Assembly: GCA_014860745.1 (NCBI GenBank)
Contig: JACZJC010000054.1
Location: 1-52,905 of the forward strand
DNA from: Anaerolineales bacterium
GTDB taxonomy: Bacteria; Chloroflexota; Anaerolineae; Anaerolineales; Villigracilaceae
Direction of reading: 5' to 3'
Length of the DNA: 52,905 bases
Shown: positions 44,993 to 52,905 of the stretch, in pieces
Layout: each line of letters begins with the position of its first letter
Numbering within the stretch: position 1 is the first letter of the stretch
The notes under the pieces: generated by a model
What the model was told of the DNA's origin: nothing
Database searches by the model: none
What the model saw: only the letters and a program-made list of their open reading frames with translations
Program-made: the position numbers and the translations under genes

Positions 44993-45028
44993 AAAAACAG
45001 GGCAGGTTGAACACCCTGCCCTGTTTTT
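44993..45028. terminator. Bidirectional terminator beyond the pentapeptide-repeat gene
   Basis: Perfect 9-bp stem CAGGGCAGG / CCTGCCCTG flanked by AAAAA and TTTTT, so it works on either strand. It lies six bases past the stop codon of the minus-strand gene. Confidence 0.75.
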
Positions 45029-45033
45029 GAGTC

Positions 45034-45474
45034 TCAATCGGTGAGTATCACCCCTGCTGCCTCAAGGTCGAATCCATTTGGCCATTGAGTGAATTTATTA
45101 TATTTCGCCCCGTTCAGATTTATTCCGCTCAGGTTCGCCCCGGTCAAGTTGGCATGGCTCAAGATCGCGTTGGATAGATTGGCTCCGCTTAGGTCGGCTC
45201 CGCGAAGATTGCTGCCGCTCAGGTCAGCTTCCATTAACGCGGCGCCATGAAAATTAGCATCGCTCAAGTCGGCATCTTCCAGATTGGCTTTGCTCAAGTT
45301 GGCATAGCGCAGTTTTGCTTTATCAAGGAAAGCTTGATTCAGGTTTGCTTCGCTTAAATCTGCCTTGCTCAAATCAAGCCCGCTTAAGCTGGCTTTACTC
45401 AAGTCGTATCCTGCCAGATGCAATGGTTTCGGTTCGCTTAGTAGTGCGTTGAGTTCTTCCTTTGTAAATTGCAT
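45034..45474 (-). CDS. Pentapeptide-repeat protein
   Basis: A 146-residue protein made almost wholly of A(D/N)LxX repeats: about twenty consecutive pentapeptides such as ADLSEANLNQAF and ANLSNAILSHANL. These fold as a right-handed square beta helix. Some members mimic DNA and bind gyrase, but most have no known role. It is 26 bases downstream of the acyl-AMP ligase on the same strand, possibly in one transcript. Confidence 0.9.
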   Translation of the reverse strand: MQFTKEELNALLSEPKPLHLAGYDLSKASLSGLDLSKADLSEANLNQAFLDKAKLRYANLSKANLEDADLSDANFHGAALMEADLSGSNLRGADLSGANLSNAILSHANLTGANLSGINLNGAKYNKFTQWPNGFDLEAAGVILTD

Positions 45475-45499: not shown

Positions 45500-47182
45500 C
45501 TAGTTTATTTCAAGTTCTTTCAAAAACTTTTCTTTATTTGCAGAGCGTGCAGTCTTGCCGCTCGATGTTTTGATGATCCATTTATCGTCAACAACTTTGA
45601 CGTGACGTAAAGCAATGGCGGAGCTCTTCGTCACATGCTTGCGGATGGCGTCCGCGATCGCCTCTTGTTCTGACGGGGAAGTTGATTCTGCTTCGGCGAT
45701 AATCACAACCTCTTCGGTGCCTTCTTCTTCGTCGTACATGCCGAAGGCGACGGTGCGTCCTTTGTGGACGCCGAGCACTTCGCATGCGAGCGACTCTAAA
45801 TCTTGCGGGTACACGTTCTTGCCACCAACGATGATGAGGTCTTTCTTTCTTCCTGAAACATACAATTCGCCATTGGCAATGTAACCGTAGTCACCTGTCA
45901 GATACCAACCGTTCTTAATGGCGGCTTCAGTTGCGTCAGGGCGGTTGAAGTATTCGGTCAGCATGCAGTCACTTTGCACGGCGATCTCGCCAACACTTCG
46001 ATTTGGCAGGTCGTTGAAGGATTCGTCCACCACGCGGATTTTTGTATTCGGTAGGGGATGCCCGGACGAAGTCATCTTCATCGAAGGCTGACCAGCTATC
46101 GGCGGAGTCGCGAGGCGCTGGGTCATGAATGTTTCGCGGTCGATCTCATCCACGGCGGGCGTTCCATCCAGCGGACTTTGAGTCACGGCGAAGACATTCT
46201 CCGCCATGGCATAACATGTTTGCAGCGCAGACTTCTTCAAACCGTATGCGGAAAATTTTTCAAAAAAGAGATCATGGCTTTCAACATGCACTGGCTCGGA
46301 GCAATTGATGATGGCACGCCATGATGAAAGATTCACGCCTTCGAGATTGCGCTCGCGAATTTTATGGGCACAAAAGTTGTAGGCGAAGTTGGGTAACCAA
46401 GTGAGCGTGCCTTTGTATTGTGAGATGGCTTGATGCAGTTTGTACGGCGCGCGCACCCAATCAAATGGCGACATGTTGACGAGCGGAATGCGCAGGAGCA
46501 CGGGCAGGAGGAAGCAGGCGATGAAACCCATGTCGTGATAGAGCGGCAGCCACGAAACAATGACATCCTTTTCAGGATCGATGTGGATCGTTTTACCGTA
46601 CGATTCAAGTTGGTTGAGAACAGCGCGATGAGAAAGCGCAACACCTTTTTGCAAGCCGGTCGTGCCAGATGAATGTTGAAGGACGACGATATCTTCAGGT
46701 GATGACTTGAAGCCTTGCAGAGATTCAAAGTTTGGTTCGGCTTCCGCTTCGACCGTGCTGGTGAGAATTACATGGCGAACGGAATTACCTTCAACAAGCG
46801 CGCTGCGGACTTCTGCTTCGAACTCGGGGTAAGTGACGATGGTGGTCGGCTTGGTGATGGAGATGAGCGAAGCGAGGTCGGCGCGGTATTTTTCGGGCGC
46901 AAGTTTCTCGGTAAGGAAGGGCATGATGGACGGAATTGCACCGTGCAGGATGGCTCCCCAAAATGAATAGATGAGGTCTTCGCCATGCTGCAAGATGAGG
47001 ATGACCACCTCGCCGGGTTTGATTCCTTCACGGGCGTAGGTTAATGCAAAACGATTCGCGCCGTGGATCAGGTCGCGATAGGTGATCGGTTTATCAGGCT
47101 GTCCCGCATGTTGCAGGATGATGCTGGTCTTGTCAGGGATTTCTTGGTAGGAGCGTTGGAGGAGGTTGGGAAGTGTGGTCAT
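45500..47182 (-). CDS. Fatty-acyl-AMP ligase (FAAL-like adenylating enzyme)
   Basis: A 560-residue ANL-superfamily enzyme. Core motifs are the P-loop LQHSSGTTGLQKGVALSH, WLPLYHDMGFI (typical of FAALs and related ligases), NWYLTGDYGYI-type Asp (YLTGDYGYIANGELYVSGR) and the late Lys in TSSGKTARSANK. It would activate a fatty or other carboxylic acid as acyl-AMP and load it on the carrier protein encoded upstream. The ATG at 47182 is chosen for the conserved N-terminus MTTLPNLLQRSY. It lies 76 bases after the ACP stop on the same strand and is the DltA counterpart of the proposed acylation locus. Confidence 0.88.
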   Translation of the reverse strand: MTTLPNLLQRSYQEIPDKTSIILQHAGQPDKPITYRDLIHGANRFALTYAREGIKPGEVVILILQHGEDLIYSFWGAILHGAIPSIMPFLTEKLAPEKYRADLASLISITKPTTIVTYPEFEAEVRSALVEGNSVRHVILTSTVEAEAEPNFESLQGFKSSPEDIVVLQHSSGTTGLQKGVALSHRAVLNQLESYGKTIHIDPEKDVIVSWLPLYHDMGFIACFLLPVLLRIPLVNMSPFDWVRAPYKLHQAISQYKGTLTWLPNFAYNFCAHKIRERNLEGVNLSSWRAIINCSEPVHVESHDLFFEKFSAYGLKKSALQTCYAMAENVFAVTQSPLDGTPAVDEIDRETFMTQRLATPPIAGQPSMKMTSSGHPLPNTKIRVVDESFNDLPNRSVGEIAVQSDCMLTEYFNRPDATEAAIKNGWYLTGDYGYIANGELYVSGRKKDLIIVGGKNVYPQDLESLACEVLGVHKGRTVAFGMYDEEEGTEEVVIIAEAESTSPSEQEAIADAIRKHVTKSSAIALRHVKVVDDKWIIKTSSGKTARSANKEKFLKELEIN

Positions 47183-47186
47183 GAGT

Positions 47187-47255
47187 GGACGATGGACGAT
47201 AGACCACAGACGATGGACAAGCAATTCATGGTCAATCATCCGTGGTTTGTGGTTG
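47187..47255. repeat. GACGATGGACCATAGAC-type imperfect inverted repeat, copy 1
   Basis: Runs of the words ATGGACGATAG, ACCACAGACGATGGAC and, in reverse, ATCCGTGGTTTGTGGT. A related copy is at 51474-51541. The two bound the acylation genes. Confidence 0.45.
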
Positions 47256-47258
47256 TTT

Positions 47259-47504
47259 TTACTTTCGCGATTGAATCAGGCTTGCCAATTGATTGAGATT
47301 ATCAAACGTCTCGGCATTCAATTCAGTATCTTCGATGCGGACGCTGAAGGTGTCTTCGATGAAGAGCGCGAGGTCCATCAAGCTGAACGAGTCAATCAAT
47401 CCGCTTGAGATGAGGGCTTCGTCCGCAGTGATGATCTTGCTTGGCTGTTTAAGAATTTTCTCAGCAATGAATTTTGCGATGGGGTAGATGATTTCAGGTG
47501 TCAT
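47259..47504 (-). CDS. Acyl carrier protein
   Basis: An 81-residue acidic four-helix carrier. The phosphopantetheine site is in SGLIDSFSLMDLALFIED (Ser of D-S-F instead of the usual D-S-L). The C-terminal helix is FDNLNQLASLIQ. It carries the acyl group made by the ligase to the MBOAT at the membrane, as DltC does in the Dlt system. Confidence 0.9.
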   Translation of the reverse strand: MTPEIIYPIAKFIAEKILKQPSKIITADEALISSGLIDSFSLMDLALFIEDTFSVRIEDTELNAETFDNLNQLASLIQSRK

Positions 47505-47536
47505 AAGTTAAATCCTTTTTATTTTTATATAACCCC

Positions 47537-47657
47537 GTTGGTTGAGTAGGGCGGGTGTTCGTCCCGCCCATATCGAAACCAACAGTTAATGAAAAGTACT
47601 CTATTTATTGGTGGTTTCGATACGCCCTCGGCTATCGCCTCGGGCTACTCAACCACC
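47537..47657. repeat. Inverted pair of a ~45-bp GGTTGAGTAG...ATCGAAACC element
   Basis: One copy runs 47537-47581 (TTGGTTGAGTAG ... ATATCGAAACCAA), the other, reversed, 47610-47657 (GGTGGTTTCGATAC ... GGCTACTCAACCACC). Each has an internal hairpin (GGCGGG..CCCGCC or CCCTCGGC..GCCTCGGG). This is a small palindromic repeat family, between the ACP and lipoprotein genes. Confidence 0.6.
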
Positions 47658-47665
47658 GGATTGCA

Positions 47666-48601
47666 TTACTGCTCTTGCAAGCCCATTCTTACCGCATCCA
47701 ACGCCTGCAAGGCAGTCAGGTTCCGCCAGGGCCAGCCGCTGAGCATGTTCTTGGGTTTATCAAAGAAATTGCGCGAGAACGAGAGATGGAAACCGTCGTT
47801 CAATTCAGTGGAATGTCCGTGGTTGGGCAGGGGTTGCAGTGCCGCCCAGAGATTCCATAACGGGATGTCGTATTCTACGGCAATTTCCGCAATTTCGGCG
47901 TTAATGCTGTGGTCACCTTCGAGATTGTCGCCCTTGGTAGCAAGGATCGGAACCACGCCCTGCTCAATCGAATACTCAATGATCTGGCGCATGTATTTGC
48001 CGTAATCATCGGCGGGGCGGTCATTGAAGTTGGTTTCCAAACTGATGATGGCAATACTTGGGTTGTGAAGTCTAAATTCACAAGCAATCGGATTTTCATT
48101 CTTTTCGCATTGCTTCGGATCAGCCCGCAAAGGAGTCAGAATCGCGGCGACGTTATATCCATCACGCATGGCTAAACTCGTGCGCGAGAACGAGCCTTCG
48201 TAATAATCGATTGTATCTTGCAGGTAAGCATATTCACCGAGGTTGTACGCACCGTCATTATCAAAGTCTACTAAATAGAAACCCGTGTTAGTTTGGCAAT
48301 CGCCCACTTTGGAGAAATGATTTGGGTCGCGTCCGAGTTCTTGCCCGCGTTTGTAGATTTCTCTGGCAGTGTCGGTCACTTCGGGGACGATGGGCAGGGA
48401 CATCCATTCATCCGCCGCCAGCGTTGGGCGCGGTGTGGTAACCACAACCTTGGTGGCTGTGACGCTCTCTTCTATTGCAGTTTCAGTGATCTTAACTTCA
48501 GGCACAGTTGTTGCTTCTGCTTCAGTTTGTGATGCTTCAGATGTGCTTGTGCAGGCGGTTAGCAAAACAAGCAGTAATAACAAGGTGGAACGGAACTTCA
48601 T
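47666..48601 (-). CDS. Lipoprotein of SGNH-hydrolase type with GDC in place of GDS
   Basis: A 311-residue predicted lipoprotein (lipobox LLTAC, Cys about residue 17, then a Thr/Glu-rich linker). The fold resembles SGNH hydrolases: block I FSKVGDCQTN has Cys where the nucleophile Ser is usual; ISLETNFNDRP holds the Asn region; DGFHLSFSR holds the Asp-His pair. It lies between two members of the putative acylation locus and could transfer or remove an acyl group outside the membrane, or merely bind. The Cys substitution makes function uncertain. Confidence 0.7.
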   Translation of the reverse strand: MKFRSTLLLLLVLLTACTSTSEASQTEAEATTVPEVKITETAIEESVTATKVVVTTPRPTLAADEWMSLPIVPEVTDTAREIYKRGQELGRDPNHFSKVGDCQTNTGFYLVDFDNDGAYNLGEYAYLQDTIDYYEGSFSRTSLAMRDGYNVAAILTPLRADPKQCEKNENPIACEFRLHNPSIAIISLETNFNDRPADDYGKYMRQIIEYSIEQGVVPILATKGDNLEGDHSINAEIAEIAVEYDIPLWNLWAALQPLPNHGHSTELNDGFHLSFSRNFFDKPKNMLSGWPWRNLTALQALDAVRMGLQEQ

Positions 48602-48620
48602 TTAAACTCCTGTTGATATT

Positions 48621-48735
48621 ATGTCATTGCGAGGAGGGCGCTTTCCCTGACGACATCGTACCCGTAAGGGTAAGCAATCCCCTGCAATCAGGAGGTTGCT
48701 TCGGGCAAAGAGCAAGGGAGCCCTCGCAACGACAT
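48621..48735. repeat. MITE-like palindromic repeat, copy 1
   Basis: Ends ATGTCATTGCGAG and CTCGCAACGACAT form imperfect terminal inverted repeats (12 of 13). The interior shares GGAGGTTGCTTCGGGC with the copy at 49850. No coding capacity. Confidence 0.7.
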
Positions 48736-48736
48736 A

Positions 48737-49840
48737 TTATTTGCAATTTTCCAAAATATAAGGCGCGAGGTTTTTCGCCAGCAAATTCTCTTCCGCAGGC
48801 GTGAGATGAATTGCGCTGTTGGTGAATTCATCCGCAGGGACGATGTTCCACAAGTCCACATACGTCCAGCCGTTTGCCTGGCTCAACATCGTCATAATCT
48901 CGCGGTAATCGTCATACGCCCAGCGGGGGTAGAAAAAATTATAGCGGATATCGCTGTTCGCGCCCGAACTTATTAACATCGGCTCATTTACGAGCAGCAT
49001 GGGCGTTTCGCCCACCACGTTGAAACCCGCCTCCAACGCATTGATAGCAAGTTGGTCTTCGGTCAGCGGCGCGATCAGGTCGTGATAACTATCGTCCGCT
49101 TCGAAATCGGTTTGGGCTTTTTCGTAATCGGACGGATAGACCTGGTCTATCCCAGTGGCGGACCACATCACGCCATAAATTTGCAAGCGGAAGAAGTCCG
49201 CCCATGAGCGACGATCACCGACAAACGTTTTCTCCCATAAGGATTTTTTCTTGAAATTGGGATCGTCCGCCTCGACTCTTAACTGGTAGTTGGTCGCCAG
49301 TTCCCGAGCCTTTTCTTCATTGTTAGCCACCAGCGGCGTGGACGTTTGCTTTTCCAGCGGGAACGCATCCAGCGTGGTCATCCAGATGACGAGGTCGGGG
49401 TCATATTGCATCGCATACGATAGAAGCATGACATCTTTAGTCAGTGAGATGGTCGGGTACCCCAAGTTATACGCGCGGACATTTTTTCCGCAGGCGTTGA
49501 GGTTATCTTGGTTGAGTTGTCCTGCCAAGGTTTCTTCTGGTTTGAGCAACGTACCCCACACCGACGAGTCACCGACAATGATGACGCGGAATTCATCGTC
49601 GGCTTTGGGTGTGCCAGCGATGACATGTGAGGCGAACATTGCGTCGAGGTCAAAAAGGCTGAGGTTGTACGATTGCTTGGGATTCTCGCCGAAGGGCAAT
49701 CGCTCCCGCCCTGGGTAGAAGACGTTGTATAGCGAGAATTGTCCAACACTCGGCTGCCATGCGGCGATGACAAGGTTGAAGAGCAGGAATAAGAGCAGTC
49801 CTTTGATGAGGATGTTGAGGGGTTTGATGGGTTGGTTCAT
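48737..49840 (-). CDS. Membrane-anchored SGNH-type protein (DltD/AlgX-like role)
   Basis: A 367-residue protein with one N-terminal membrane anchor (GLLLFLLFNLVIAAW) and an extracytoplasmic SGNH domain. Block I is VIIVGDSSVWGTLLKPEETL with the catalytic Ser, and the C-terminal NSAIHLTPAEENLLA holds the His. Such proteins encoded next to MBOATs transfer acyl groups to cell-surface polymers (DltD, AlgX/AlgJ, PatB). It is 95 bases downstream of the MBOAT and is flanked on both sides by MITE-like repeats. Confidence 0.82.
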   Translation of the reverse strand: MNQPIKPLNILIKGLLLFLLFNLVIAAWQPSVGQFSLYNVFYPGRERLPFGENPKQSYNLSLFDLDAMFASHVIAGTPKADDEFRVIIVGDSSVWGTLLKPEETLAGQLNQDNLNACGKNVRAYNLGYPTISLTKDVMLLSYAMQYDPDLVIWMTTLDAFPLEKQTSTPLVANNEEKARELATNYQLRVEADDPNFKKKSLWEKTFVGDRRSWADFFRLQIYGVMWSATGIDQVYPSDYEKAQTDFEADDSYHDLIAPLTEDQLAINALEAGFNVVGETPMLLVNEPMLISSGANSDIRYNFFYPRWAYDDYREIMTMLSQANGWTYVDLWNIVPADEFTNSAIHLTPAEENLLAKNLAPYILENCK

Positions 49841-49849
49841 GTAATTACC

Positions 49850-49935
49850 ATGTCATTGCGAGTCTTCGAGAAGCAATCCTCAACTGAGTAGGAGGTTGCT
49901 TCGGGCGAAGAACCAGAGCGCCCTCGCAACGACAT
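49850..49935. repeat. MITE-like palindromic repeat, copy 2
   Basis: Same terminal repeats as copy 1 (ATGTCATTGCGAG ... CTCGCAACGACAT), 86 bases. Its inner end coincides with the stop region of the MBOAT gene. Confidence 0.7.
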
Positions 49936-51368
49936 TAATGGGCTCCAAACAATTTCAAAATTACCTGCCACGAGGTGACGGGCGACGAGAGCGCGAAGAA
50001 GATCCATCCAATGGCGACAAAATGGAAGGTGAGTAAGATTCCGCTGATGTTGAGGATGGCTTGTCGTGTTGGTGTGGTCGCCCAAGCGGCGGCTTTGACT
50101 TTGGTGGCGTCATTCCAGCGGTTGTGGATGAAGAGTCCCAGCCCGTGCCACAAGCCCCAGAGGGTGAAGTTCCAAGTCACTCCATGCCAGAAGCCGATCA
50201 GCAGCATGGTGGTGACTTGGGTCAGCAGGATCATCGTCGGGATGGACATCGGTTTCTGCCAAGACCTGAGCCAGCGGGTGATGGGATTAAAGAAATACGC
50301 GCGGAACCACTGGGTGAGAGTCATGTGCCAGTTGTTCCAGAATTGAGTCAGGTTGGGTTTGAGGTAGGGCGAGGCGAAGTTCTCTGGCAGTTTGATTCCG
50401 AGCAATTGGGCGATGCCAAGGGCAATGTTGGTGTAGCCGCTGAAGTCGAAGTAGATCTGGAAGGTGTAGGCGTAGACGATGACCCACATCCAAAACGTGG
50501 AGGTGACTTGAGTTGCGTTGGTGTCGTTCAGAGCGATGAGAGCAAGAGCATCAGCGATGACGAATTTTTTGAACAAGCCAAGCAGCAGACGTTGACCAGC
50601 GGGATAAAAGGTTTCAAAGTATAGACCTGCAAAGGGAGCGCGGAGATCTTTAATGAAACGTTCAAGGCGGTCAATGGGACCGGCGGTAAAGGCAGGGAAG
50701 AAGATGACGTAGGTGATGAATTCTCCCACGTCTACGGAGGGGAAGCGACCCGATTGTTTATCGCGGATGGTGTGGATGAGTCGGAAGGCGACGTAGGAAA
50801 AGCCCAACCAGCGGAAGTCGTTAATGGAGACGTTGGTCAGTGATTGACCTGAGAGTGTGCGAAGGAAGGAACTGAGCCAGAGAGATAGGGCGGGAATCTT
50901 GATGAGGAGAAAAAGCCCGATGGTTAGAACCAAGCCCACCGTTAAGAAAGAAGCGCTGAAACGCGTCAGACGAGATAAGGCTAACAGCGTCAGTCCTGTT
51001 ATCAAAAAGATGAGGAGAGTCGTTTTGAGTTGGGGCGGGCGCGAGGCGGTGAGGAGTTGGAAGTCTGCGGAGAGGAAGCGGGTGAGGTTGAGGAGTAGGA
51101 CGACGCCAGCGACGATGAGAAGGATGATGATGTTTTTGCGTTGCTTGCGAGTCTCATCGTCGGCGGTGATGTACCAGGTGAGGACGACGAGCACGAGTGT
51201 GGCGAGGGGAGCCCAGAAGTCGGCGCCGCGGATGGGGAGGGCGGGTTGCAGCCAGAAGATGACGACGACACTGGCGATGAGTAGAAACCACGTCCGCCCG
51301 CGGTGGCGCAGGAGTGACCCCCAGAGGAGTGAGGCGGCGGCGAGAATCAGGATGTTTTCAAGCGCCAT
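49935..51368 (-). CDS. MBOAT-family membrane O-acyltransferase (DltB/AlgI-like)
   Basis: A 477-residue protein with about 11-12 transmembrane helices. The family core is complete: YFDFSGYTNIALGIAQLLG, NFASPYLKPNLTQFWNNWHM, then FWHGVTWNFTLWGLWHGLG, whose His is the catalytic residue. MBOATs of this type move an acyl group across the membrane for attachment to surface glycans or teichoic-type polymers. The ATG at 51368 abuts the stop codon of the microprotein gene (0 bases between), implying tight coupling. Confidence 0.92.
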   Translation of the reverse strand: MALENILILAAASLLWGSLLRHRGRTWFLLIASVVVIFWLQPALPIRGADFWAPLATLVLVVLTWYITADDETRKQRKNIIILLIVAGVVLLLNLTRFLSADFQLLTASRPPQLKTTLLIFLITGLTLLALSRLTRFSASFLTVGLVLTIGLFLLIKIPALSLWLSSFLRTLSGQSLTNVSINDFRWLGFSYVAFRLIHTIRDKQSGRFPSVDVGEFITYVIFFPAFTAGPIDRLERFIKDLRAPFAGLYFETFYPAGQRLLLGLFKKFVIADALALIALNDTNATQVTSTFWMWVIVYAYTFQIYFDFSGYTNIALGIAQLLGIKLPENFASPYLKPNLTQFWNNWHMTLTQWFRAYFFNPITRWLRSWQKPMSIPTMILLTQVTTMLLIGFWHGVTWNFTLWGLWHGLGLFIHNRWNDATKVKAAAWATTPTRQAILNISGILLTFHFVAIGWIFFALSSPVTSWQVILKLFGAH

Positions 51369-51473
51369 TTAGAAGCCTTGATAGATCCACGTCGGGCTCG
51401 AGTCTGCGGTGAAGATGACGAGTGCGATGAGGATGAGGCAGAGGAGGAGGGCGAGAAGGTTTTCGCGTTTCAT
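51369..51473 (-). CDS. DltX-like 34-residue membrane microprotein
   Basis: ATG 51473 opens a 34-codon frame that ends directly at the MBOAT start. The product is a charged MKREN start, one transmembrane helix (LLALLLCLILIALVIF), then TADSSPTWIYQGF at the C-terminus. In Dlt operons DltX is likewise a short one-helix protein ending in a conserved F-I-Y-x-x-F motif whose Tyr takes part in acyl relay; W-I-Y-Q-G-F has the same pattern. Too short for default gene callers. Function is inferred from motif, topology and position. Confidence 0.7.
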   Translation of the reverse strand: MKRENLLALLLCLILIALVIFTADSSPTWIYQGF

Positions 51474-51541
51474 GGACGATAGTCGGCAGACGATGGACCA
51501 TAGACGATCTTTTCCATCGTCCGTGGTCCGTCGTTTATGGT
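51474..51541. repeat. GACGATGGACCATAGAC-type imperfect inverted repeat, copy 2
   Basis: GACGATGGACCATAGACGAT and, after CTTTTCC, its near complement ATCGTCCGTGGTCCGTC form a hairpin directly upstream of the microprotein gene. Related to 47187-47255. Confidence 0.5.
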
Positions 51542-51545
51542 CGGT

Positions 51546-51932
51546 TTACTGGACTCCGCAGACCAGCCAGTTGCCGTCTTGTTCGACGACTTCGTAGGTG
51601 CGGTCGGCGAGATCGAGGGATTGAGGTTCGCCGTTGTAGCTCATGTTGAGCATGCCGGTGCAGTCGACGAGGGTTTTATCGCCGTCGGTACCGGATTCGG
51701 CGCAGGACATTCCGTCTACGGTGACTTCGACGAGGGCGAAGGAGTCGAGTTCGATCAGGGCATCATCTTCCCAGTCGGCGCAGGAGTTGGAGATGAGGGC
51801 GGCTTGGTCTTTGGTCGCAAGGGCGTTGATGTAGCCTTCGACGGCGGGAGCCGCGCCGCCACTTGCGGACGCTCCGCAGGCGGAAAGAAGAATGCTCAGG
51901 GCGAGCATGAGAATGGTGAGTTTCGTATGCAC
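51546..51932 (-). CDS. Small lipoprotein of unknown function
   Basis: A 128-residue predicted lipoprotein: signal peptide LTILMLALSILLSAC, Cys at about residue 18, a Gly/Ala-rich linker, then a small domain with AVEGYINALATKDQAAL near its start and paired Cys later. The pattern resembles NTF2-like small lipoproteins. GTG 51932 is chosen because GGAGG precedes it by five bases; an in-frame ATG at 51944 overlaps that site. Confidence 0.75.
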   Translation of the reverse strand: MHTKLTILMLALSILLSACGASASGGAAPAVEGYINALATKDQAALISNSCADWEDDALIELDSFALVEVTVDGMSCAESGTDGDKTLVDCTGMLNMSYNGEPQSLDLADRTYEVVEQDGNWLVCGVQ

Positions 51933-52000
51933 AGGTTCCTCCATGAATTGGTCAAACGATTGCGGATTATAGCATGGAGGGATTTGAGGAATGGATGCCC

Positions 52001-52767
52001 TCATTGAGGGTTTTGGGATTGTTTAGAAATTTGAGTATTGATTGCTGCCCGAATTTTGCTTTGTATATCTTTCTTGATATCAGGCAGTGTTTCAAGTATC
52101 CCTTCAAGAAATTTTTCTTTCAGATTATCTTCTCTAATTTCTACATATTTTTGGGCTTGTTCTTTTGATAAAGGAATATCAACATCAATTTCGACACTAA
52201 TGGCTTGGTGTGTTGCTTGAATACGTATTGGAGCAGTTTCAGGTAGCTTTTGGAGTTGAAATTTAATATCCATCCCTGAAGCATCCATAGGCTCAATAAC
52301 CTTGTTTTCATAATTGAACTTTTCCATGCGAAAATCAAACTGATAGTCTTCACCCTCCCTTACTTGCATACTTGATTGGCGCATATTGGCTTCATCACGA
52401 GAAATTGGGATATCCACAATAAGAGGTTCGAGTGGGTCATCTTTTATAATATCTAATTCATCAAGAACGTCGCGCCACATAACCAGTACATTGTATAGTA
52501 TGTTTATCAACCTAATCTCTGTTCCATTGTCTAGTTTTACATAAACTTCAAGCTGGGGAGAAAAATATTTTCCTAGTTCATCCTCAAACATAATAATTCG
52601 CAAGTTTTCATACATTTGAGATGCCTTAGTAATCTGAGGGTTATTGCGCGAAATTTCGCGATGCTTTGATGCATTGGTTATGTCGCCAATTAATCCATAA
52701 TCTGGGCATCGGTTCCGTAATGAGTTTTTACTTGGTTGGATATTAACAGGAATGTGTTCTCGTAAAT
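52001..52767 (-). pseudogene. Unrecognised gene, 5' end probably removed by an IS insertion
   Basis: The frame stays open for about 255 codons but its upstream end runs into the inverted repeat of an IS at about 52768, where only a TTG within the IS could start it. The product is soluble and charged, containing GDITNASKHREISRN and a long C-terminal helical stretch; I do not recognise the family. AT-rich compared with neighbours. The true N-terminus has probably been lost. Confidence 0.6.
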
Positions 52768-52905
52768 AGACCTCTTGCAAAAGTCAAATTGAGTTGAGTT
52801 CGAGGTTGTAAATAGCAGCGATCAGGTTGAAGCGCAAAGCAAACCTCTTTCTACGATTACGATACCTCTCGCTCAAAATACGAAACACTTTCAACTTACG
52901 GAATA
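52768..52905 (-). mobile_element. End of an IS5-family insertion sequence
   Basis: The IS begins at a probable terminal repeat (GACCTCTTGCAAAAGTC, about 52769-52785) and runs off the right edge. It interrupts the gene at 52001-52767. Confidence 0.6.
52784..52905 (-). CDS. IS5-family transposase, C-terminal end (partial)
   Basis: Forty codons at the window edge on the minus strand, ending in TGA at 52784. RILSERYRNRRKRFALRFN followed by LIAAIYNLEL is the conserved C-terminal region of IS5-type DDE transposases (C1 region with the Glu upstream, outside this window). Cut by the window edge, so intactness is unknown. Confidence 0.75.
   Translation of the reverse strand, partial: FRKLKVFRILSERYRNRRKRFALRFNLIAAIYNLELNSI

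Follow-up and report, generated by a model that had tools for sequence, protein, structure and literature searches.

A putative Dlt-like envelope acylation locus built around a fatty-acyl-AMP ligase in the Anaerolineae

Introduction

Surface polymers of the Anaerolineae are poorly known. Two described systems are close to the locus considered here: the Dlt system of Bacillota (DltX, DltA, DltB, DltC and DltD) and the PatA/PatB-type pathways, for both of which passages of PMC12148441 give a tyrosine relay as established. The two differ in how the shuttle is built and fed. In Dlt the acyl-shuttle motif, FXYXXF, belongs to the microprotein DltX, whereas in PatA/PatB-type systems the motif is fused to the membrane-bound O-acyltransferase (MBOAT), and PatA uses acetyl-coenzyme A (acetyl-CoA) with no carrier protein (PMC12148441). 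More generally, the non-Dlt MBOAT/SGNH pathways are described in passages of that paper as having neither a similar carrier protein nor a DltX-like microprotein (PMC12148441, JBC 2025). The subject of this study is a minus-strand operon in 52,905 nucleotides of DNA from an Anaerolineales bacterium of the Villigracilaceae (contig JACZJC010000054.1, assembly GCA_014860745.1), in which a DltX-like microprotein, a DltB-like MBOAT, a DltD-like SGNH protein and an acyl carrier protein (ACP) are joined by a fatty-acyl-AMP ligase (FAAL). This whole stretch, called the window below, is an entire contig of a 4.32 Mb genome in 82 contigs.

The locus is read here as a Dlt-type transmembrane acylation pathway with a fatty acyl cargo, a reading to which a probability of about 0.64 is given. 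There is an even chance that this fatty-acyl pathway is also the first MBOAT-SGNH system outside D-alanylation with a split shuttle fed by a carrier protein, accompanied by an SGNH lipoprotein with a cysteine nucleophile. Among the papers listed by searches of the open-licence literature, judged by title or the start of the abstract, none joins FAAL and MBOAT and none is on this locus, including those listed for D-alanylation or dltB in Chloroflexota and for the Anaerolineae envelope or teichoic acid.

An operon with the parts of a Dlt-type pathway

Seven genes, all with open reading frames, follow one another on the minus strand:

51546-52004, minus strand: lipoprotein, 152 aa, first gene of the operon type called A below (open reading frame)
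51369-51473, minus strand: microprotein, 34 aa, ending WIYQGF; putative DltX-like acyl shuttle (translation)
49935-51368, minus strand: DltB-like MBOAT, 477 aa (PF03062, E 1.6e-18)
48737-49840, minus strand: DltD-like membrane-anchored SGNH protein, 367 aa, predicted acyltransferase (invariant residues and predicted fold)
47666-48601, minus strand: SGNH-fold lipoprotein with Cys102 at the nucleophile position (invariant GDC and predicted fold)
47259-47504, minus strand: acyl carrier protein, 81 aa, Ser39 (PF00550, E 1.8e-6)
45500-47239, minus strand: FAAL ligase (PF00501, E 8.9e-47), with a likely start by alignment at Met20, about 47182

The ATG of the MBOAT gene directly follows the microprotein stop, with zero gap. 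The initial annotation had described the microprotein, the MBOAT, two SGNH-type proteins, the ACP and the ligase as one single-strand set, and all of these are present, open and on the minus strand. Its family assignments also stand: those of the MBOAT, ACP and ligase by their Pfam matches, those of the two SGNH proteins, for which sequence gave little (PF13472 below its cut-off, E 0.02 and 0.04), through AlphaFold models and fold searches. Two features come in addition: the conserved lipoprotein gene directly upstream and, in the SGNH lipoprotein, a Cys where the nucleophilic Ser would stand. The nearest named relatives (L091-L102, with 84-93% identity in the MBOAT) are genomes whose titles read Chloroflexi, Anaerolineae or Anaerolineales, and in one case Candidatus Villigracilaceae.

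From the parts, motifs, predicted folds and co-inheritance described below we infer the chemical steps, the chain length and the acceptor of the pathway. The FAAL would turn a fatty acid into an acyl-AMP and then load the phosphopantetheine of the ACP. On the cytoplasmic side the MBOAT would take the acyl group from the acyl-ACP and pass it to the Tyr of the microprotein tail WIYQGF outside. The acyl-Tyr tail would then move to the DltD-like protein, where Ser92 would receive the acyl group and form an ester with a hydroxyl group on an envelope polymer or a glycolipid; by the position of these proteins such an acceptor is likely. The SGNH lipoprotein with its invariant Cys may be a further protein that handles acyl groups on the outer side, in type A operons only. 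The relay from acyl-ACP through the MBOAT and the microprotein Tyr to the DltD-like Ser is probable, and, given the relay, a fatty acid is highly probable as its cargo.

A detached shuttle motif beside a DltB-like acyltransferase

The microprotein (MKRENLLALLLCLILIALVIFTADSSPTWIYQGF) has a short positive N-terminus, a single hydrophobic stretch and an aromatic C-terminus, and by the positive-inside rule its tail should face outside. The tail WIYQGF fits the DltX motif at every residue except the first, which is Trp for Phe; the true DltX of Enterococcus casseliflavus, for comparison, ends in AFIYNEF. Conservation of the gene was followed with a tail-less profile, its last seven columns cut, which was searched in the 500 nt upstream of each DltB-like MBOAT (at least 300 bits and at least 150 nt of upstream sequence, copies of one genome counted once). 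Of 116 distinct loci, 110 have the microprotein immediately before the MBOAT gene; one of the 110 matches (L035/L094, one genome) is cut by a run of N and lacks its tail. The 109 complete tails read WIYQGF (104), WIYLGF (2), FLYEGF (1), WIYQGY (1) and FIYQGF (1): Tyr is present in all 109, the last Phe in 108, and the first position is Trp in 107 and Phe in 2. Set against the separate C-terminal FXYXXF microprotein of Dlt, the Tyr and the last Phe are kept and Trp replaces the first Phe.

Across 301 genomes sampled from the phylum, the microprotein and the DltB-like MBOAT coincide without exception: both are in the same 27, with one microprotein place in each and none in the 274 others, on a scan whose microprotein profile includes rows from some of those 27 genomes. 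Other MBOAT rows, about 31-39% identical, carry the motif themselves: 23 of 24 end in a C-terminal YxxF of their own (L089 being the exception), 20 of them in FxYxxF. The detached shuttle is therefore a trait of this MBOAT family.

The MBOAT itself ends in LKLFGAH, with no fused C-terminal shuttle motif of the PatA/AlgI type. LTA_dltB (TIGR04091) is the sole NCBIfam model that it matches, at 227 bits against a cut-off of 375, and among solved structures DltB is nearest (E 1.7e-45, the alignment spanning MBOAT residues 184-459). Its H348 and H395 are invariant (13 of 13 rows) and align with DltB residues 289 and 336, which are named as key residues in passages of PMC11035591.

Predicted SGNH proteins and the upstream lipoprotein

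The DltD-like protein has a predicted helix at residues 7-28 and an AlphaFold model of pLDDT 92. Its G90, D91 and S92, together with H345, are invariant (47/47 and 42/42 rows). The best Foldseek match of the model is DltD (6pfx, E 7e-5). A second fold search places CgnD first (8a2n, Z 15.0 over 217 residues), with the DltD entries at Z 13.8-14.2 over 272-283 residues (root-mean-square deviation 4.8-5.2 Å) and the other SGNH rows shown at 164-221 aligned residues. Rows within Z 1 were counted as tied, so that it is the aligned length, and not Z, that favours DltD. The predicted structure is consistent with a DltD fold that has its Ser and His. Gene number varies among relatives, as L063 (7936-16232) has four DltD-like genes and L055 (7360-12504) three, each set around one MBOAT, as if several acceptors were served by one relay.

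The SGNH lipoprotein, modelled with a pLDDT of 88, matches SGNH cores at Z values up to 16.0 over 168 residues. At block I, where a catalytic Ser would stand, it has Cys102 within GDC (27/27 and 44/44 rows); further residues are conserved, C165 and C174 without exception and D269 and H272 in 90% or more of 44 rows. The protein may be an enzyme that works through an acylthioester, or it may bind without catalysing anything. No SGNH protein with a Cys nucleophile appears among passages of the SGNH review PMC9487903, which is no proof of novelty. In the scan of named loci the gene is often present in several copies.

The lipoprotein at the head of the operon had no match in a Pfam search. Its Cys residues 43, 75, 101, 115 and 149 are invariant in 23 of 23 aligned rows.

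The ligase, its carrier and the nature of the cargo

The best solved relatives of the ligase are 3kxw (E 7e-72), a Legionella FAAL whose deposited title is saframycin Mx1 synthetase B, and 3pbk (E 1e-62), a fatty acyl-adenylate ligase. The ligase carries the FAAL-specific insertion, 33 residues long compared with 11 in two DltA sequences, and this insertion aligns with that of 3pbk without gaps but for one residue. The latter structure is E. coli FAAL (EcFAAL), whose W224, M231 and F279 are given in passages of PMC8460268 as the bulky residues that close the CoA pocket. Aligned by eye, W230, P232, M237 and F285 of the ligase fall on EcFAAL W224, P226, M231 and F279, and they are kept in 33, 34, 32 and 34 of 34 rows, respectively, two of these rows being distant ligases. 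The DltA model TIGR01734 scores 32.5 bits on the ligase, far from its cut-off of 559.85, and because this test fails the locus is not a member of Dlt proper.

A tree of 49 ligase rows places the two DltA on one side of a long branch (100/100), and the window FAAL in nested groups of 26, 27 and 28 rows (98/96, 94/91 and 97/92) that hold the family-type FAALs, both linked and unlinked. FAALs encoded in frames of about 3,200 aa, one from the same genome included, fall outside these groups. Several outer rows sit on long branches, and it is through such branches that two other ligases of the same genome (L262 and L263) are placed closer in, which leaves the outer branching order uncertain. The initial annotation had proposed a FAAL in place of a D-alanine ligase, and had named grouping with an unrelated biosynthetic pathway as a result that would speak against the idea. 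The insertion, the pocket residues, the best solved relatives and the distance from DltA in the tree bear the proposal out, and the window FAAL stands apart from the FAALs in long frames of polyketide-synthase size. The amino-binding Asp of DltA was dropped as a discriminator between the two kinds of ligase, since the Asp of the FAAL HDMG aligns on it.

Ser39 of the ACP is invariant (31 of 31 rows). The dltC model scores 17.2 bits on it, below the cut-off of 52.35.

These features bear on an unlikely alternative, that the same relay carries a short or polar acid (C2-C5, a hydroxy or an amino acid) because a FAAL-family ligase has drifted towards such substrates; the locus would then be a counterpart of D-alanylation with a replaced ligase. 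The company of the ligase suits a small cargo, as the MBOAT is nearest DltB among solved structures with LTA_dltB its only NCBIfam match, and a microprotein, an ACP and a DltD-like protein are what a small-cargo system is made of. A FAAL review, moreover, gives in part of its text substrate chains from C4 to C18, the C4 being a hypothetical substrate of one listed FAAL. The ligase itself argues the other way, through the retained FAAL insertion, the near-invariance of the CoA-excluding W, M and F, its separation from the two DltA in the tree and the low score of the DltA model.

A true Dlt system elsewhere in the same genome was also considered and rejected. The top score of the DltA model there is 303 bits, and it falls on other ligases, one in contig C24 (a 3244-aa open frame) and one in contig C62, the latter adjoined by an acyl-CoA dehydrogenase, an ACP and a GNAT/FemAB-like gene. 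Of the two, C62, whose surroundings were inspected, does not hold a Dlt operon. The wider C62 region (L270, 1797-8873) encodes an amidohydrolase, the AMP-ligase, the acyl-CoA dehydrogenase, the ACP, two unknown genes and the GNAT/FemAB-like protein, and is likely a small biosynthetic cluster.

Co-inheritance, split operons and a possible salvage role

In the phylum sample the MBOAT (over 400 bits) was found in 27 of the 301 genomes and an orthologue of the FAAL (over 490 bits, plus G274, where it lies in two contig-end pieces) in 26. Both genes are present in 25 genomes, the MBOAT alone in 2 (G017 and G305), the FAAL alone in 1 (G048) and neither in 273. Every carrier lies within the class, and among its 41 members the corresponding counts are 25, 2, 1 and 13 (Fisher p 8e-8, uncorrected for kinship). 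In a sample of 150 genomes from the family (E<=1e-100, counted by hand) the MBOAT occurs in 94 and the FAAL in 117, with both in 91, the MBOAT only in 3, the FAAL only in 26 and neither in 30.

The association is also one of position and exceeds chance. Of 40 stretches drawn around relatives of the MBOAT within the same family, 38 contain a DltD-like gene and 30 an ACP; the FAAL follows with 29, the upstream lipoprotein with 25 and the SGNH lipoprotein with 22. Two layouts can be told apart. In type A (25 of 40) the upstream lipoprotein is present, and 22 of these stretches also have the SGNH lipoprotein; type B (15 of 40) has neither. The window is of type A, and homologues of the upstream lipoprotein precede the microprotein or the MBOAT. 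A scan of named loci, covering 80 of 231 related stretches and each titled as a Chloroflexota group, gives a like picture: ACP and FAAL lie within the stretch in 37, while 23 have at least 8 kb of downstream sequence without a FAAL and 20 are shorter stretches.

The strongest evidence comes from operons that are split. The genomes of 19 of the 23 loci without a local FAAL were searched, and in 16 of them a FAAL turned up at another place, with best E values between 7e-262 and 7e-135; the family sample includes at least five of those 16 genomes. The remaining four of the 23 (L137, L140, L153 and L160) have their FAAL at a second locus. These four and L147 also have no adjoining microprotein, and in each genome it is encoded elsewhere: in all five, the second locus has the microprotein beside ACP and FAAL (at L280 the FAAL is truncated where the contig stops). 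Of these five second loci, three have an MBOAT of their own. The other two, L279 and L280, hold microprotein, DltD-like gene, ACP and FAAL with no MBOAT in the stretch, and here the first locus would supply it. A sixth MBOAT locus with no microprotein upstream, L252 in genome G274, has the microprotein on another contig. Nothing speaks more strongly for a joint action of the parts than this supply in trans of what one locus lacks.

The initial annotation had asked whether the gene set recurs in other Anaerolineae, and it does: it is kept across many of them, with FAAL and ACP in most MBOAT stretches. The annotation had further held that homologous loci lacking the ligase would tell against a joint function. 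Such loci do occur in part (23 of 80, each with at least 8 kb downstream), but the loss is mostly compensated, in 16 of the 19 searched genomes elsewhere and in four at a second locus, with three left without any. Its Dlt-like logic is upheld, with a DltX-type microprotein, a DltB-like MBOAT, a DltD-like predicted fold and an ACP that co-occur even where they are unlinked.

Improbable, given these patterns, is the explanation that FAAL and ACP form a general fatty-acid salvage or lipid pathway merely sharing an operon with the MBOAT, microprotein and DltD-like protein, which would use another donor, for example acyl-CoA as in PatA. FAALs in family genomes without this MBOAT, pairs set beside housekeeping genes and the named loci without a local FAAL all fit such a role. 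Against it stand the FAAL in 91 of the 94 MBOAT genomes of the family, the completion of most split operons elsewhere in the genome, and the company that the pair keeps outside this family. FAALs of the same clade, with ACP, lie beside fused-motif MBOATs at L075, L077 and L237, and at L223 beside another MBOAT, with no motif end seen, and an AlgX-like gene (AlgX being named on a related protein at L229). Linkage of FAAL and ACP with envelope acyltransferases is thus recurrent. At L081 (8751-14228, genome G012) a distant FAAL of 30% identity lies with an ACP between two fused-motif MBOATs (FIYFQF and FIYQEF), perhaps by independent recruitment.

On the 212-kb plasmid of Leptolinea sp. HRD-7 (AP024711.1) the lipoprotein, microprotein and MBOAT lie together (L267, 8377-10356), annotated as hypothetical. 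This organism is a possible experimental host.

Weight of the evidence

Several observations weigh against a fatty-acyl Dlt-type pathway, and the main ones concern the independence of the ligase. A FAAL is present in 26 of the 56 family genomes without the DltB-like MBOAT, so FAAL and ACP have other uses or partners; 21 of these 26 genomes have another MBOAT (E<=1e-20), and assembly cut-off accounts for at least three (L220, L235 and L236). FAAL-ACP pairs with no MBOAT neighbour are common, several of them standing among housekeeping genes (SRP-GTPase, peptide-release-factor and S1-domain), and they are the chief argument against reading the genes as strictly one pathway. Conversely, 3 of the 94 MBOAT genomes of the family have no FAAL (G017, G029 and G094), and a genome search of the named loci found none at all in G450, G456 and G457, G450 having a contig of equal length to that of G017. 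Genome G305, in one contig, keeps the microprotein, DltD-like gene and ACP at locus L253 with no FAAL, and its MBOAT match has an in-frame TGA, as if the system were decaying or altered. Six of the 116 MBOAT loci, as given above, have no microprotein upstream.

Other points concern the proteins themselves. The DltX models in Pfam and NCBIfam do not match the microprotein, nor was a DltX match found for it among solved structures, and the first residue of its motif is Trp; its resemblance to DltX therefore lies in motif and layout and not in a family model. The top NCBIfam model for the ligase is PRK07768, a long-chain-fatty-acid-CoA ligase (354.9 bits), followed by PRK09192, a fatty acyl-AMP ligase (348.3 bits), both under their cut-offs. 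FAAL membership alone may leave the chain length wide, from a hypothetical C4 upward. In the DltD-like protein the Asp of the canonical DxxH is not in place, the window reading NSAIH, although Ser-His dyads occur among SGNH enzymes according to passages of PMC9487903.

That the locus performs genuine D-alanylation of a teichoic acid, a D-alanine-activating enzyme from the FAAL clade standing in for DltA, is hardly credible even with DltB, DltX, DltC and DltD counterparts all present, since the ligase has the FAAL insertion that the two DltA sequences lack, the genome has no DltA-level match and no match to PF04464, and the PF04464 matches in 12 of 20 relatives, over the cut-off of 22.1, are weak (19-30 bits per stretch). 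Weak as they are, these matches mean that the relatives may have a glycerophosphate polymer. The PF04464 results touch on the statement of the initial annotation that Chloroflexota lack ordinary teichoic acids, from which it took the acceptor polymer to be new. Confidence in the fatty-acyl pathway is lowered overall because the top named model of the ligase is a CoA ligase by name and because teichoic-type genes are not wholly absent from relatives. The system is nonetheless real and conserved, and very likely works like Dlt.

Neighbouring features

Two further features lie downstream of the ligase gene:

45034-45474, minus strand: pentapeptide-repeat protein (PF00805, E 7e-32), probably outside the system
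44993-45028, minus strand: hairpin, a possible terminator 3' of the pentapeptide gene (inverted repeat with 17-nt arms, 94% complementary, and a 2-nt spacer)

The pentapeptide protein was considered as a member of the system and set aside, as tblastn gave no match at E 1e-4 in 58 related stretches. Within the operon, a 46-nt intergenic repeat occurs twice with 89% identity, after the DltD-like gene (48690-48735) and after the MBOAT gene (49890-49935). A second repeat, of the GACGATGGACGATAG type, lies near the FAAL start (47188-47221) and before the microprotein (51471-51542). Upstream of the operon, 52001-52780 is a minus-strand open reading frame of 259 aa for which a Pfam search gave nothing over the cut-off.

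Comparison with known systems

The locus combines a carrier protein and a putative shuttle microprotein with another kind of ligase, and its host class is distant from Bacillota. If the proposed pathway is right, the tyrosine relay has a modular donor side, which accepts acyl-CoA, a D-alanyl carrier or a fatty acyl carrier, and bacteria have a route by which lipid chains are placed on surface polymers across the membrane. The locus also offers a testable handle on the Anaerolineae envelope.

Like stand-alone FAALs with a cognate ACP in polyketide and lipopeptide clusters, the ligase has FAAL architecture and an adjoining ACP. It differs from them in its partners, an MBOAT and SGNH proteins, in its own tree group, and in that no polyketide synthase or nonribosomal peptide synthetase gene is seen in the operon. 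With PatA/PatB and the other MBOAT-SGNH O-acetylation pathways the locus shares the pairing of MBOAT and SGNH protein and the Tyr shuttle motif, which is here placed on a separate microprotein and accompanied by ACP and ligase. The likeness to Dlt extends over a ligase, a carrier, an MBOAT, a separate microprotein with an aromatic-X-Tyr-X-X-Phe motif and a membrane-anchored SGNH protein with a predicted DltD-like fold. Unlike Dlt, the locus has a FAAL and not a D-alanine ligase, an MBOAT with an N-terminal extension that scores under the DltB cut-off, Trp as the first residue of the motif, another gene order, two extra lipoproteins, and a host class, the Anaerolineae, of its own.

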